This document shows, piece by piece, positions 12,493-42,750 of a stretch of DNA of 42,750 bases (positions are counted from its first letter, which is position 1; every line of letters begins with the position of its first letter). The stretch lies in assembly GCA_017526785.1 (NCBI GenBank), contig JAFXQV010000033.1, forward strand, positions 1 through 42,750, in the 5' to 3' direction. The notes under the pieces are model-generated. The model was given only the letters and a program-made list of their open reading frames with translations. It had not been told where the DNA came from and made no database searches. Both the position numbers and the translations under genes were made by a program. The stretch comes from Oscillibacter sp. (GTDB lineage: Bacteria; Bacillota; Clostridia; Oscillospirales; Oscillospiraceae).

Positions 12493-12960
12493 TCAGCGGT
12501 TCCACTCTTTTCTGTGGCGGTCCATTTCGCGCTCGGCGTCGCGCTTGGCGACGGTGGCGCGTTTGTCGTAGTTCTTCTTGCCACGGCAGAGGCCAATTTC
12601 CACCTTAACGCGGGCGTCCTTGAAGTATACGCTCAGCGGAATCAGCGTGTAGCCGTCCTCGCGGACTAAGGCGTGCAGTTTGCGGATTTCGCGCTTGTGC
12701 ATGAGTAAACGTCTGTCCCGCACCGGGTCCTTATTGAAAATATTGCCCTTCTCATAGGGGGAGATGTGCATGCCGTGAACGAACAGTTCCCCGTCACGTA
12801 CGGAGCAGTACGCGTCTTTGAGATTGAGCGTCCCGGCGCGGATGGACTTGACCTCTGTGCCGGCCAGAGAAATGCCCGCCTCGTAACGCTCCTCCACAAA
12901 GTAGTCGTGATAGGCTTTCCGATTCCGGGCAACCTGCTTGATACTCTTCTTTTCCGTAAC
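12493..12960 (-). CDS. smpB: SsrA-binding protein SmpB, no canonical start codon
   Basis: SmpB binds tmRNA and brings it to stalled ribosomes for trans-translation. The protein of about 155 residues has NRKAYHDYFVEE, AGISLAGTEVKSIRAG, NLKDAYC, YEKGN and the basic C-terminal tail (KRDAEREMDRHRKEWNR) that mimics a codon-anticodon stem. An excellent AGGAGG (12966-12971) is followed at the right distance only by GTT (12958-12960) and ACG (12955-12957). A TTG at 12991-12993 overlaps the -10 box of the apparent promoter and lies before the ribosome-binding site, so it is unlikely. The true start is probably a rare codon, or the sequence has a base error. Its RNA partner ssrA is at 38874-39238. Confidence 0.93.
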   Translation of the reverse strand, partial: VTEKKSIKQVARNRKAYHDYFVEERYEAGISLAGTEVKSIRAGTLNLKDAYCSVRDGELFVHGMHISPYEKGNIFNKDPVRDRRLLMHKREIRKLHALVREDGYTLIPLSVYFKDARVKVEIGLCRGKKNYDKRATVAKRDAEREMDRHRKEWNR

Positions 12961-12981
12961 GTTCCCCCTCCTTTCCGGAAA

Positions 12982-13010
12982 AGTATACCACAAATCCGGC
13001 GTGATTGCAA
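12982..13010 (-). promoter_or_regulatory. smpB promoter
   Basis: On the minus strand, TTGCAA (13005-13010), a 17-base spacer and TATACT (12982-12987). Transcription would begin near 12975, just before the AGGAGG of smpB, so the leader is very short. Confidence 0.65.
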
Positions 13011-32856: not shown

Positions 32857-33127
32857 GTTGTGATTCCTCCCTGATTTGTACAGCAAAGTATGTCCGCGCG
32901 GCGGGAAAATCTGTCCGCTAACCCGTGCGTGTCATTCCGGCCAACAAAAACGCCGGACGGACACAGCTACTCCGACCGGTAAAGAATGTCGCGGCGCGTG
33001 ACGTGGCGCGTCGCACAGTATCCCAGTCGCCCGATTGCTTCGGACATACTCCCCGGAAGTTACCCCGCCTGCGGCGGGCAATCTCCCGGTTCATCGCGTG
33101 CCGCTTGTTTCCCAAGCAGACCTATGC
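32857..33127 (-). promoter_or_regulatory. Structured leader of the ribosomal protein cluster
   Basis: About 265 bases separate the promoter from rpsJ. On the minus-strand RNA there are hairpins GCTTG/CAAGC (near 33100-33115), CCCGCC/GGCGGG (near 33065-33080), and a two-part stem of GTGTC/GACAC plus CCGGC/GCCGG (32929-32964) with a U-rich loop. A 65-codon frame inside is probably chance. A long folded leader suggests post-initiation control of ribosomal protein synthesis; no known leader motif was recognised. Confidence 0.5.
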
Positions 33128-38873: not shown

Positions 38874-39238
38874 GGGGGTGTATCGGTTTCGACGGGGATG
38901 TGGAGGCAGAATAAGCGGGCGGCGGTGCCTGACCGCCTTAAAACGGGCAACTTATAAATCAAATAACGACAGTTATTCTCTGCCTGTCGCCGCCTGATTG
39001 CGGCGACCGTCCGCCCCGGAAGAACCGCGAGCCGGGAAGGGCGTGATTTAGCGGTAAATGTGCGTACGGTAAGCTTTGCCCGTGCCATAAATTATGAAGC
39101 TCACCTGACCCGGCGGCGTGGCGGCTTGCCGTCGGGGAGGGGAACGGGAAGATAGACTTCCACAATAACCGTCTGCGCCCGGAGAAAGTTCTGTTAAAGC
39201 GTTTTCGGACGGGAGTTCGACTCTCCCCACCTCCACCA
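38874..39238 (+). ncRNA. ssrA: tmRNA (SsrA)
   Basis: A 365-nt one-piece tmRNA. The 5' end GGGGGTGTATCGGTTTCGAC and the 3' end with GGGAGTTCGACTCTCCCC and encoded CCA (39236-39238) form the tRNA-like part; GGGGGTG pairs with CACCTCC, one G-U. The tag frame runs from the resume codon GCA at 38947-38949 to TGA at 38995-38997 and reads ATYKSNNDSYSLPVAA. The end -VAA fits recognition by ClpXP-type proteases. It rescues stalled ribosomes with SmpB (12493-12960). ssrA 3' ends are common integration sites. Confidence 0.97.
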
Positions 39239-39279
39239 TATTGTGTTGACAAAAAAGATGCAGTCAACTTTTTGAGGTC

Positions 39280-39329
39280 AAAAACCCCGATTTTTGGATT
39301 TTTTAATCCGAAAATCGGGGTTTTTGCTT
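39280..39329 (+). terminator. Terminator of ssrA
   Basis: A 21-bp stem (39280-39300 with 39305-39325, one G-T) with loop TTTT ends in TTTTT. It is the longest hairpin in the window. Confidence 0.92.
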
Positions 39330-39693: not shown

Positions 39694-40344
39694 ATGACGG
39701 AACGAAAAAATCTTTGCGCTCACATCCCGATTGCGCTCCACGAAAAGGTCTCGGCGGCCCGCGCCGAAGCGGGACTGAACACGAACGACTACGTCACGCA
39801 AGTCCTGACCGAATACTATGACTGGAAAGAGAACGGAGGAAACATCATGGCGCGGAAAGCCGAAAACACGCGGACGCTCGCCTTCCAGATCCCGGAAGAG
39901 CTGTTCCAGCGCATTAAAGAGCATCTGGAAAAGGAATCGAGACGGCGCGGAATCCGCCTGACGCAACGCGACTTCGTAGTGGGGCTTATCGAACAGGCTC
40001 TGGAGGAAGCGGAGCGGGAAGCCGCCCGGACGGAGGAAACGGCGGCGGGACAGCCTGATGAGGCTGACGCCCGGTATGAACCCGATGCGGACTGCCCGGA
40101 CGCCGGAGCGGGTGGCGAAGAGGCGGAGGAGGCCGACAGCGCGGAAAGCGCGGAAAACGCCCCCGCGGACGCCGGAGAGGACGGCGAAGAGGCGGAGGCC
40201 GACAGTGCGGAAAGCGCGGAAAACGCCCCTGCGGACGCCGGAGAGGACGGCGAAGAGACGGCGGAGGCCGACAGCGCGGAAAGCGCGGACGCCGGAGAGG
40301 ACGCGGACAGCGGAGACGGCGTCCGGTCTGCGGAATGGAACTGA
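39694..40344 (+). CDS. Ribbon-helix-helix type protein with acidic repeat tail
   Basis: The 216-residue protein has two short segments that look like ribbon-helix-helix DNA-binding units: residues 1-45 (KNLCAHIPIALHEKVSAARA) and about 50-105 (RTLAFQIPEELFQRIKEHLE and RLTQRDFVVGLIEQALEEAE). The rest (about 110-216) is acidic, with three repeats of EADSAESAENAPADAGEDGEE type. Similar proteins occur in integrative conjugative elements of gut Clostridia (family recollection, not searched). GGAGG lies 8 bases before the ATG at 39694, which excludes a longer form. A terminator-like hairpin follows, before the PAPS-reductase gene. Confidence 0.72.
   Translation: MTERKNLCAHIPIALHEKVSAARAEAGLNTNDYVTQVLTEYYDWKENGGNIMARKAENTRTLAFQIPEELFQRIKEHLEKESRRRGIRLTQRDFVVGLIEQALEEAEREAARTEETAAGQPDEADARYEPDADCPDAGAGGEEAEEADSAESAENAPADAGEDGEEAEADSAESAENAPADAGEDGEETAEADSAESADAGEDADSGDGVRSAEWN
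40129..40330. repeat. 66/69-base tandem repeats, acidic coding
   Basis: Three copies begin GAGGCCGACAG at 40129, 40195 and 40264, the last one shortened. They encode the acidic tail of the ribbon-helix-helix protein and keep its frame. Confidence 0.8.
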
Positions 40345-40385: not shown

Positions 40386-40427
40386 GCCCGGTCGGGTATC
40401 CCAAAAGGACGCCCGACCGGGCTTTTT
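40386..40427 (+). terminator. Strong hairpin between the RHH and PAPS-reductase genes
   Basis: GCCCGGTCGGG (40386-40396) and CCCGACCGGGC (40412-40422) form a perfect 11-bp stem followed by TTTTT. Only 20 bases separate it from the next start codon and no promoter fits there. The next gene must be read by readthrough, or by a promoter inside the RHH gene. Confidence 0.85.
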
Positions 40428-40447: not shown

Positions 40448-41479
40448 ATGGAGCTTTTTAACACGCTGGACGACTTTTTGCGAAGCTGTCCAGATAACGG
40501 CGTCAACTTTGAAATCCAGAGCGCGTTCCTGAAAGCGTGGAGCAAAATCCACGGATGGAACGACGACGGAAAGCCCTGGACAATGTACCCGGTCGTCTTG
40601 ACCGCAATTAGCGGCGGGGCTGACAGCGACGTCACAATGGACATGATAGAGCGAATCGGACATCCGCTCAGTGAGGTTCATTACGTATTCTACGATTCCG
40701 GCCTTGAGTTCGAGGCGACAAAACGCCATCTCGCCTTTCTGGAAGATAAGTACGGCGTCAGCATTGAGCGGCGGAAGGCGAAAGTCCCCGTTCCGCTGGG
40801 TGTGAGGCGCTTCGGCGTTCCCTTTTTAAGCAAGAAGGTCAGCGATTATCTTTATCGTTTGAGGTTGCACGGTTTCCAATGGGAAATGGAGCCGTTTGAG
40901 AAGCTGCGGCTCAAATATCCCCGTTGCGAATCGGCGCTGCGCTGGTGGTGTAACGCATGGGGAAAGAACAGCCGGATGAACATCCAACGCCGCTGCTGGC
41001 TTAGGGAATTTATGGCGGAAAACCCTCCGGACTTCCCTATCTCGGACAGATGTTGCGAGGGCGCGAAAAAGGCGACGGCGAAGCAATTGGAAAAGGAGAT
41101 TCGTCCGGATTTGGCCGTTACCGGAGTGCGAAAGTCGGAGGGAGGCGCGAGAGCGTCGGCGTACCGTTCATGCTTCGATGAGAACTGCGGAAAACCGAAC
41201 CGTTTCCGCCCGGTATTCTGGTTGAAAGACTCGGACAGGGACGCCTACGACCGGGCGTTCGGCGTCACGCATTCCGACTGCTACTCCGTTTACGGCCTGA
41301 CAAGAACGGGTTGCGCCTGCTGTCCGTTCGGACGGAATTTTGAGGCGGAACTGGGAGCGGCGAAAAAGTACGAGCCAAGACTGTACGCAGCAACGGTCAA
41401 CGTATTTGGCGACGCCTACGCGTACACAAGAGCCTACCGCGAATACGCCTGCGCAAGGGACGCAGAGCGGAATAGATAG
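40448..41479 (+). CDS. PAPS-reductase/ATP-pyrophosphatase family protein (DndC/IbrA-like)
   Basis: The 343-residue protein has the PP-loop SGGADS (55-60), which binds ATP for adenylation or sulfur transfer, then YVFYDSGLEFEATKRHLAFL. In the C-terminal half are GVRKSEGGARASAYRSCF and a Cys cluster TGCACCPFG (Cys289, 291, 292), with Cys202-203 earlier; such cysteines bind an iron-sulfur cluster in DndC-type proteins. Relatives are DndC of DNA phosphorothioation and IbrA of enterobacterial prophages. No dndB, dndD or dndE is present. Simple sulfate reduction is unlikely given the accessory context. AAAGGAG precedes the ATG. Confidence 0.83.
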   Translation: MELFNTLDDFLRSCPDNGVNFEIQSAFLKAWSKIHGWNDDGKPWTMYPVVLTAISGGADSDVTMDMIERIGHPLSEVHYVFYDSGLEFEATKRHLAFLEDKYGVSIERRKAKVPVPLGVRRFGVPFLSKKVSDYLYRLRLHGFQWEMEPFEKLRLKYPRCESALRWWCNAWGKNSRMNIQRRCWLREFMAENPPDFPISDRCCEGAKKATAKQLEKEIRPDLAVTGVRKSEGGARASAYRSCFDENCGKPNRFRPVFWLKDSDRDAYDRAFGVTHSDCYSVYGLTRTGCACCPFGRNFEAELGAAKKYEPRLYAATVNVFGDAYAYTRAYREYACARDAERNR

Positions 41480-41482
41480 TCA

Positions 41483-42295
41483 TTAGAGCGTCTTGTGTTT
41501 GTTTATCTTTTCATCGAAAACAATTACAAGACTGGACCTTGCTCCATAAGTATCCATGAACTTATCCCTTTTTCCTTTGTTATAGAAGAAAGCAAGTTGC
41601 TTTAACATATCAGGAAGATTGCTTGCATCTCGATATGAAATTGCATTGTCAGCGCAGACTTTCTTCATCCTTTTGTGGTCATATCCAGCGGTTTTTGCAC
41701 ACTTAATAATGCAGTTGCGGAGAATGTTTTTCCGCTTTACCGTTTTTCCGCTATCAGCGATAGCGCGGAAAATATCTTCTGCATATTCTAAGCGTTGCAT
41801 GGCCTTGTCATAATCATCTTCTGTAAATACGAGTTCCCCCCGGCGCACCTTTTCCCGCTTCCCTTTTTCGGTATTGGATTTTCCGGCGGCGTTGAAGACA
41901 TCGTCACAACTAACCTGATATGTCTCCATCAACTCGAACAGACGCTGATAATCTAATCCTCCCGTTTTAACATACCGTTTCACAACGTCCTTGCTACTCC
42001 ATTGGGTAGAGTTCAAGTTCGCCGCTACACAGTCATCAATGCCCAACCCATCGCAAATAATATAGCTAATGGGAAAGCCATGCTTCTTGCACACAGCAAG
42101 ACGCCCCTGACCATCAATGACTTCCATTTTTTCATTCACGACAATAGGGATAGGCAACTGCTTGATACGCATAGCAGTTTCAATTTTCTTGAATCGTTCC
42201 GGTTCAACGTCTCTGTTGCCAAGCAGTGTTTTGAACTGCTCGTAATCATAAGTTTCATATATATTGCCTACAATTGTATCGTTTTTCTTTTGCAT
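41483..42295 (-). CDS. ParB-like (IbrB-type) domain protein
   Basis: The 270-residue protein has an N-terminal ParB/sulfiredoxin-like domain (about 8-100): PIPIVVNEKMEVIDGQGRLA at 48-67, with the GQGR phosphate-binding turn at 62-65. The rest is helical and basic. It lacks the usual chromosome-partition context. Proteins of this kind (IbrB) are found beside PAPS-reductase-like IbrA in prophages, normally on the same strand; here the two converge with 3 bases between stops. The gene is clearly AT-richer than everything around it, a sign of recent acquisition. AAGGAG lies 8 bases before the ATG. Confidence 0.78.
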   Translation of the reverse strand: MQKKNDTIVGNIYETYDYEQFKTLLGNRDVEPERFKKIETAMRIKQLPIPIVVNEKMEVIDGQGRLAVCKKHGFPISYIICDGLGIDDCVAANLNSTQWSSKDVVKRYVKTGGLDYQRLFELMETYQVSCDDVFNAAGKSNTEKGKREKVRRGELVFTEDDYDKAMQRLEYAEDIFRAIADSGKTVKRKNILRNCIIKCAKTAGYDHKRMKKVCADNAISYRDASNLPDMLKQLAFFYNKGKRDKFMDTYGARSSLVIVFDEKINKHKTL

Positions 42296-42350
42296 TGTGC
42301 ATTCTCCTTAGAAACTGTGCAATCAGTTTTCAAATACGACCTCTAATGAA

Positions 42351-42379
42351 AGTGTATCACAAATATTTGGCAAACGCAA
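42351..42379 (-). promoter_or_regulatory. Candidate promoter of the ParB-like gene
   Basis: On the minus strand, TTGCGT (42374-42379), a 17-base spacer and TACACT (42351-42356) preceded by TG, an extended -10. The leader to the start codon is about 50 bases. Confidence 0.5.
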
Positions 42380-42435
42380 GATATTTTTTGCTTTTCATCG
42401 AAATTATTTTTGCTCCATCATTTTTTCTTCCTTTA

Positions 42436-42750
42436 CAACTCCCGCCTGACCGCCGTTTCCCTGACGGCGCTAATGCCATCGTCGGACACGAAAGCGCGGA
42501 CGAAGGGGCGGAAAACATCGGCGGCGTTATCGGCGGCGCGACAAACAGCCTGATTGACTCCTGTTCCGCGAAAGCGAATATCGTCCTTCCCGACAACTCC
42601 GGAAAGGCGGGAATCCTGTGCGGCGGACTGGAGGCGACCTCCGTTGTCAACGGCTACGCGACGGGAACGCTGACGGCGGGAGACGGCTGTTCCGAAATCG
42701 GCGCGGTTGCCGGAAGCGTTTCCGATTCGGAGGAAATCACGAACAGCCGG
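42436..42750 (+). pseudogene. GLUG-like surface protein fragment, no start seen, runs off the window
   Basis: A GC-rich open frame continues past the window end. It encodes Gly/Ala/Ser-rich beta repeats such as ENIGGVIGGATNSLIDSCSA and EIGAVAGSV, like GLUG-motif regions of secreted or surface proteins. No signal peptide or ribosome-binding site precedes it; the open frame reaches back to an ATG at 42346, but that part is AT-rich and overlaps the ParB gene promoter. It may be the 3' part of a gene truncated when the ParB-like gene arrived, or an internal piece of a gene with a missed start. Confidence 0.5.

Follow-up and report, generated by a model that had tools for sequence, protein, structure and literature searches.

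Behind the ssrA gene of an Oscillibacter genome, a PP-loop gene of the PAPS/APS-reductase type and a gene for a ParB-like protein run towards each other and almost touch. Do the two form a functional unit, or did mobile DNA set them side by side? The stretch analysed (the window) is one entire contig of 42750 bp from a 2.34-Mb genome in 38 contigs, and it ends about 3.5 kb behind ssrA. Our reading, held with a probability of roughly 0.75, is that two pieces of mobile DNA met by chance behind ssrA. The first piece would be a cassette of an RHH gene and the PP-loop gene, carried as cargo by, or left over from, an element that targets tRNA/tmRNA 3' ends for insertion. The second, an AT-rich insertion some 0.96 kb long with a phage-type ParB-like gene, would reach from the PP-loop stop to a truncated surface-protein gene. 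The unit supported by our results is RHH with PP-loop, not PP-loop with ParB.

The ssrA site and the ParB-like gene

An initial annotation had described the two genes as convergent with stops three bases apart. Its coordinates are exact on this point (the intervening bases are 41480-41482), and the ParB-like gene is indeed much the AT-richer of the two, with a GC content of 0.418 against 0.557 for the PP-loop gene and a GC3 of 0.454 against 0.68. The pair had also been placed beside ssrA. Rfam confirmed the tmRNA gene, whilst ARAGORN called no tmRNA in the window; the RHH gene, however, separates ssrA from the PP-loop gene, which puts the start of the pair 1.2 kb from ssrA. Features of the site are collected in Table 1. 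The inverted repeat between the RHH and PP-loop genes was not called by the consensus terminator scan. The remainder of the contig is core genome, read by eye except for SmpB (12493-12993, by Pfam), and carries an S10-Clostridia ribosomal protein leader at 33027-33102 (Rfam RF03136, 45.7 bits).

Table 1. Features behind ssrA, in window coordinates
Feature	Position	Strand	Evidence and remarks
ssrA (tmRNA)	38874..39238	+	Rfam RF00023, 154.7 bits; site landmark
26-base block starting with the tmRNA CCA end	39236..39261	+	candidate end of a tRNA-targeting mobile element
Terminator-like hairpin behind ssrA	39281..39324	+	consensus scan; weak alone (11 terminator-like sites against 6.2 expected in shuffles)
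RHH (Arc-like) protein gene, acidic repeat tail	39694..40344	+	phrog_582 'Arc-like repressor', E 2.7e-4
Inverted repeat with T's behind it, in the RHH/PP-loop intergenic gap	40386..40422	+	found also in the C28 copy
PP-loop protein, PAPS/APS-reductase type, intact ORF, 343 aa	40448..41479	+	PF01507, phrog_424, AlphaFold model, 63-row alignment
ParB/sulfiredoxin-fold protein, phage type, 270 aa	41483..42295	-	phrog_12305
AT-rich stretch holding the ParB-like gene	41480..42440		putatively one insertion; borders by eye from composition
GLUG-motif surface-type protein fragment, without own start, open to the contig end at 42750	42439..42750	+	PF07581, E 3.1e-6

The ParB-like protein falls in the same family as PHROG 12305, the ParB-like partition proteins of Enterococcus and Streptococcus phages (E 7e-35), and showed 38% identity to Enterococcus phage EFP01 over 58% of its length. 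The N-terminal ParB/sulfiredoxin fold is present, whilst Pfam ParB_N (PF02195) gave no match and the only Pfam signal was a sub-threshold one to GmrSD_N (13 of 33.2 bits). Going by the fold only, the protein may act as a nucleotide-binding DNA clamp or as a regulator. Unlike PHROG 12305 members in phages, it is encoded here by a single gene on an AT-rich insertion, and its surroundings in the window showed no phage genes. We infer that the AT-rich stretch, from the PP-loop stop to the GLUG fragment, arrived as one insertion. A 13-base direct repeat, CTTTTCATCGAAA (repeat family D6), is located near the ends of the stretch at 41507-41519 and 42391-42403, and may be due to chance.

Family and residues of the PP-loop protein

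The PP-loop protein matched PF01507 (E 7.7e-12, 46 bits against a cut-off of 22.5) and, over residues 43-322, phrog_424 (E 3.1e-25, 90.1 bits); its predicted AlphaFold structure has a pLDDT of 95.7. Residues 55-60 form the SGGADS ATP-binding loop, whose D59 and S60 are kept in 62 of 63 aligned rows. Cysteines C202-C203 and C289-x2-C292 make up CC-X85-CXXC, the APS-reductase arrangement. In the 63-row alignment C202, C203 and C242 are invariant, C289 and C292 occur in 62 rows, C168 in 61 and C160 in 59; C160, C168 and C242 go beyond the APS-reductase set and are family-specific. From these residues, the enzyme very probably binds ATP at the SGGADS loop and a putative [4Fe-4S] cluster at CC-X85-CXXC.

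The initial annotation had called the cysteines DndC-type, but they are the APS-reductase set, which DndC shares only in part. In the DndC of E. coli B7A, an extra pair (Cys262/Cys273) is described besides the cysteines common with APS reductase (PMC12193691). Identification as a DndC-type enzyme was tried and rejected: the DndC profile TIGR03183 was unmatched both by the protein (at E <= 1) and by the genome, and three DndC proteins carry GEC and PSCG before FGCWVC where the window protein has neither.

APS and PAPS reductases carry a C-terminal EC[GS][LIV]H motif that holds the reductase nucleophile. This motif was present in none of the 63 rows of the family alignment, and because the PP-loop protein is without the reductase's sulfate-attacking cysteine, it is no sulfate-assimilation enzyme. 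It differs from CysH both in lacking this catalytic motif and in having the extra cysteines 160, 168 and 242. The cysH models scored far below their cut-offs (TIGR02055 at 20.1 bits against 235.3, TIGR00434 at 16.2 against 165.1). A PAPS-reductase gene grouping with assimilatory CysH in a sulfate-assimilation locus was what the initial annotation had named as speaking against its own reading; such a grouping was not seen, and the neighbours, read by eye, are of another kind. It is therefore quite improbable that the gene is metabolic cargo encoding a PAPS/APS reductase for assimilation or auxiliary metabolism, even though PF01507, the APS-reductase-type cysteines and the fold fit it and prophage copies of PHROG 424 are listed as host metabolism (PMC11318856).

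PAPS-reductase-like proteins of PHROG 424 (and 2302) are found in phages and prophages, one carrier of the PHROG 424 type being Clostridioides phage Hain-Saunders-2022a, and C. clostridioforme prophages carry PHROG 424 genes (PMC11318856). The profile match given above is the likeness to these proteins; the difference is one of setting, as the gene studied here lies beside an RHH gene behind ssrA, outside any recognisable prophage.

We also compared both proteins with solved structures. PDB sequence searches found no relative of either the PP-loop or the ParB-like protein. ATP sulfurylase and FAD synthase tie with the solved structures nearest to the PP-loop model, and the fold thus leaves the chemistry unfixed. 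DndC and SspD were absent among the PDB fold matches listed for the model, an absence that is uninformative. In profile comparisons the PP-loop family scored E 5.3e-14 against a PP-loop protein with a ferredoxin-like tail, E 5.7e-9 against an IbrA-like protein and E 5.1e-5 against DndC, an order that is soft since these profiles were built on two, one and three sequences, respectively. Our judgement among the alternatives, a tentative one, is that the protein may act on a nucleic acid, activating or transferring sulfur with the help of ATP and the [4Fe-4S] cluster; both chemistry and substrate are putative.

Recurrence of the pair and its known counterparts

The PP-loop family was collected at 98 loci, 41 on genome contigs and 57 on viral contigs. 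A first search of viral contigs with the lone PP-loop protein had given two pattern matches, neither of them confirmed, and an alignment query was used instead. Flanks of 1 kb on each side are available for 76 of the 96 loci with a called PP-loop ORF, and flanks of 3 kb for 57. For two loci (L202 and L254) the greedy gene list contained no PP-loop ORF, so they are absent from the 72 dereplicated groups used below, but all their ORFs still entered the scan for co-occurrence of ParB and PP-loop genes. The collection of the window's ParB type comprises 80 viral loci, 32 of them with 5 kb on each side, and 55 distinct proteins.

A confident match to the window-type ParB near the PP-loop family was found at none of the 98 loci; the one weak match (L244, E 0.0023) lies 2.3 kb from the PP-loop gene. 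In the reverse direction, PP-loop fragments were present within 6 kb of the window-type ParB at one of the 80 viral loci (L050, about 4.2 kb away). The ParB-like gene has a single occurrence in its own genome and, at E <= 1e-10, none in the 393 other genomes of the order (394 in total). Short weak matches, with E values from 3e-6 to 8e-4, appeared in 12 other genomes of the 149 searched.

These counts bear on the minimal two-gene module that the initial annotation had proposed, in which the PP-loop enzyme would put sulfur or another group on DNA whilst the ParB-like protein would choose the sites or regulate, like DndB or IbrB. The annotation had held that homologues which never co-occur beyond this strain would count against such a module, and apart from L050 and the weak match at L244 this is what was found. 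In addition, the genes are convergent and not operonic, and a second, decayed copy of the PP-loop gene on contig C28 is without parB. The module reading is thus not supported, and we regard it as improbable. Its companion suggestion, that the two halves had joined separately, agrees well with the differing base composition, the second copy without parB and the separate travels of the two families.

Some evidence does favour a module. PP-loop and ParB folds co-occur in Dnd systems and in ibrAB, and DndB is called a ParB superfamily protein (PMC12839542). PADLOC gave weak matches of the PP-loop protein to BrxP (E 6.4e-7) and SspD (E 2.5e-4). Furthermore, at four of the 98 loci the PP-loop gene has a gene for a ParB-fold protein of another kind within 3 kb, always on the same strand, at distances of 249 bases (L161), about 0.5 kb (L257, where a methyltransferase piece intervenes), 1.2 kb (L244) and 2.6 kb (L218); the two folds could therefore be functionally tied. 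The window protein resembles DndC, SspD and BrxP in combining a PP-loop with Fe-S-type cysteines, and differs from them in that none of their partner genes was seen near the PP-loop gene. By eye, no dnd or ssp genes are present among the window ORFs, as the initial annotation had reported for dndB/D/E and sspB/C; PADLOC covered only the three site proteins. The kinship to DndC and SspD for which that annotation had proposed a profile search came down to the weak SspD match, TIGR03183 giving none, and PF11922 was likewise without a match in the genome.

A further possibility is a regulator pair of the IbrA/IbrB type, activating prophage or surface genes, a parallel the annotation had also drawn. 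IbrA and IbrB combine a PP-loop with a ParB fold, as the two adjacent genes do here. The family profile match to an IbrA-like protein is in line with this, as is a match of the ParB family profile to that protein's partner (E 1.8e-5 over 44 columns), and surface genes adjoin both copies in this genome, a GLUG fragment at one and an SLH protein at the other. However, the window protein belongs to another PP-loop subfamily: DUF3440 (PF11922) was unmatched in the protein as in the genome, and the CC/CXXC cysteines have no counterpart in the aligned IbrA-like protein. In a control pair from the phylum (L316, DUF3440 plus ParB-type), the genes are codirectional with a 13-base overlap, whereas the window pair is convergent. 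Only two DUF3440 loci were found, and just one had a ParB-type partner among the ORFs listed. The parallel does not hold, and a pair of this type is very improbable at the ssrA site.

RHH cassettes, tRNA ends and the neighbours of the PP-loop family

Further evidence for the preferred reading, a junction of mobile pieces, comes from the RHH gene and from the settings in which the PP-loop gene is found. The RHH protein is probably an autoregulating repressor. Homologues at E <= 0.001 occur in 20 of 119 genomes, its own included. Sites with at least 50% identity numbered 20 after omission of three short pieces, and 18 were fetched. A tRNA or tmRNA gene lies just upstream on the same strand at 11 of these 18; at the ten with an unshortened RHH gene, the gap measures 392-404 bases (eight sites), 455 bases (window) and 564 bases (G009). 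One site (G037) has a tRNA-like 3' end only. Six of the 18 have no tRNA, which speaks against the preferred reading, and Rfam returned nothing for the RHH loci without one. Below 50% identity, none of the 11 fetched sites has an upstream tRNA or tmRNA. At two RHH sites the upstream gene is a resolvase-type recombinase, not a tRNA (L289, by eye, and L300). L290 (6621-8797) holds a facing pair of RHH genes, with a separate tRNA-Pro gene (anticodons ggg and tgg) some 394 bases upstream of each.

Alignment of the RHH upstream stretches revealed a common block beginning at CCA. As a 26-base pattern, the block was found at seven sites in 6 of 60 genomes, and the reversed control gave none. Its CCA is the end of a tRNA or tmRNA at six of the seven sites and lies 46 bases beyond at the seventh. 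Behind the block is an RHH gene at four sites and a phage-integrase fragment at one other. Viral contigs gave three pattern matches, none beside an ARAGORN-reported tRNA, and neither a tRNA nor any match to RHH or PP-loop turned up on these contigs. The block was seen in the window (39236-39261), at L320 and at L322-L326, the cargo that follows being RHH, integrase or something else. By eye in the alignment, a T-arm-like sequence in inverse orientation is present about 200 bases past the block.

At the ssrA site, DNA similarity to three relatives (G003, G069 and G052) stops at the tmRNA end, and G003 carries a phage-integrase gene at the same site. The cargo behind RHH varies, being PP-loop in the window and on C28 and a DUF3991/Toprim protein elsewhere. 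From this we infer that the cassette may have arrived by insertion behind ssrA. With up to three mismatches allowed, the genome yielded a single match to the tmRNA 3' end and hence no duplicate as a second attachment site, although the contig ends 3.5 kb behind ssrA; neither attachment-site direct repeats nor an integrase were found at the site. We take it as an element end with remnants, which is no proof of a working element. Tycheposons are islands that target tRNA genes, placing mobile DNA with changing cargo at tRNA 3' ends. The ssrA site differs from them in that no integrase or second attachment site was found.

The second RHH and PP-loop copy, on contig C28, lies directly behind tRNA-Arg(ACG) with 88% DNA identity and no parB. 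It is decayed: the first part of RHH is missing, and in the PP-loop gene the frame breaks around residue 47 and the sequence runs out near residue 316. Between the two PP-loop genes dN was 0.0515 and dS 0.478 over 268 codons, a ratio of 0.11, indicating that the protein was under purifying selection through most of the divergence. Both copies retain the hairpin with T's between RHH and PP-loop. Surface-type proteins adjoin the PP-loop gene at both genome sites (L020:10874-12052 and window 42439-42750), the one behind the C28 copy having SLH and Flg_new domains, and by eye one also lies by a PP-loop gene in a large viral contig (L203:8632-9420).

Elsewhere the gene was found in other company. 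Its nearest relative (G080, 63% identity, same genus) stands in a tandem of ParB (PF02195), PP-loop and RepA_N initiator, a setting that suggests carriage on a plasmid- or ICE-like element. In G207 the surroundings of the PP-loop gene, read by eye, include phage replication and terminase genes. On phage contig L257 (5079-7990) a ParB gene, a C5-methyltransferase piece and the PP-loop gene form one tight run, and at L244 (3551-5585) genes for a DGQHR-type protein and a classic ParB stand in tandem upstream of the PP-loop gene.

The enzyme may often serve its mobile host as a partner of that host's DNA methyltransferases. Of the 72 dereplicated loci, the window among them, 19 have a methyltransferase gene no more than 1.5 kb from the PP-loop gene; in all 19 the strands agree, and in nine the genes touch or are at most 5 bases apart. 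Methyltransferase density was 10.3 per 100 kb within 1.5 kb against 3.8, 1.7 and 4.6 farther out, an enrichment biased upward because the methyltransferase seeds were drawn partly from the counted neighbourhoods. At eight of the 72 loci (L177, L180, L182, L184, L188, L189, L191 and L192; for example L182:6995-10285) the PP-loop gene is followed by HATPase_c_3 and then Methyltransf_35, by a Pfam run on one of the eight. For the HATPase, PADLOC yielded no more than a faint match to MzaB, and this operon is a possible defence or modification system. In a limited literature search, we found no recognised description of a PP-loop/ParB pair or of a HATPase - Methyltransf_35 operon.

More broadly, the PP-loop Fe-S family could be a mobile sulfur-dependent modifier of nucleic acids that switches partners by carrier, be they DNA methyltransferases, HATPase with Methyltransf_35 or ParB-type proteins. 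In this genus it would ride on small RHH-headed cassettes that hop between tRNA/tmRNA 3' ends, and the window pair would add another combination of partners, either still forming or already decaying. We hold this wider picture to be rather unlikely as it stands. The analysis tells a tempting two-gene 'module' apart from a junction of mobile genes. It also concerns a family commonly labelled as sulfate metabolism in phages, from all 63 aligned members of which the reductase nucleophile is absent. If it is true that the family sulfur-modifies nucleic acids, its links to methyltransferases and to the HATPase - Methyltransf_35 operon would be a lead to a new modification or defence chemistry, and RHH cassettes at tRNA ends would account for the spread of cargo within the genus.
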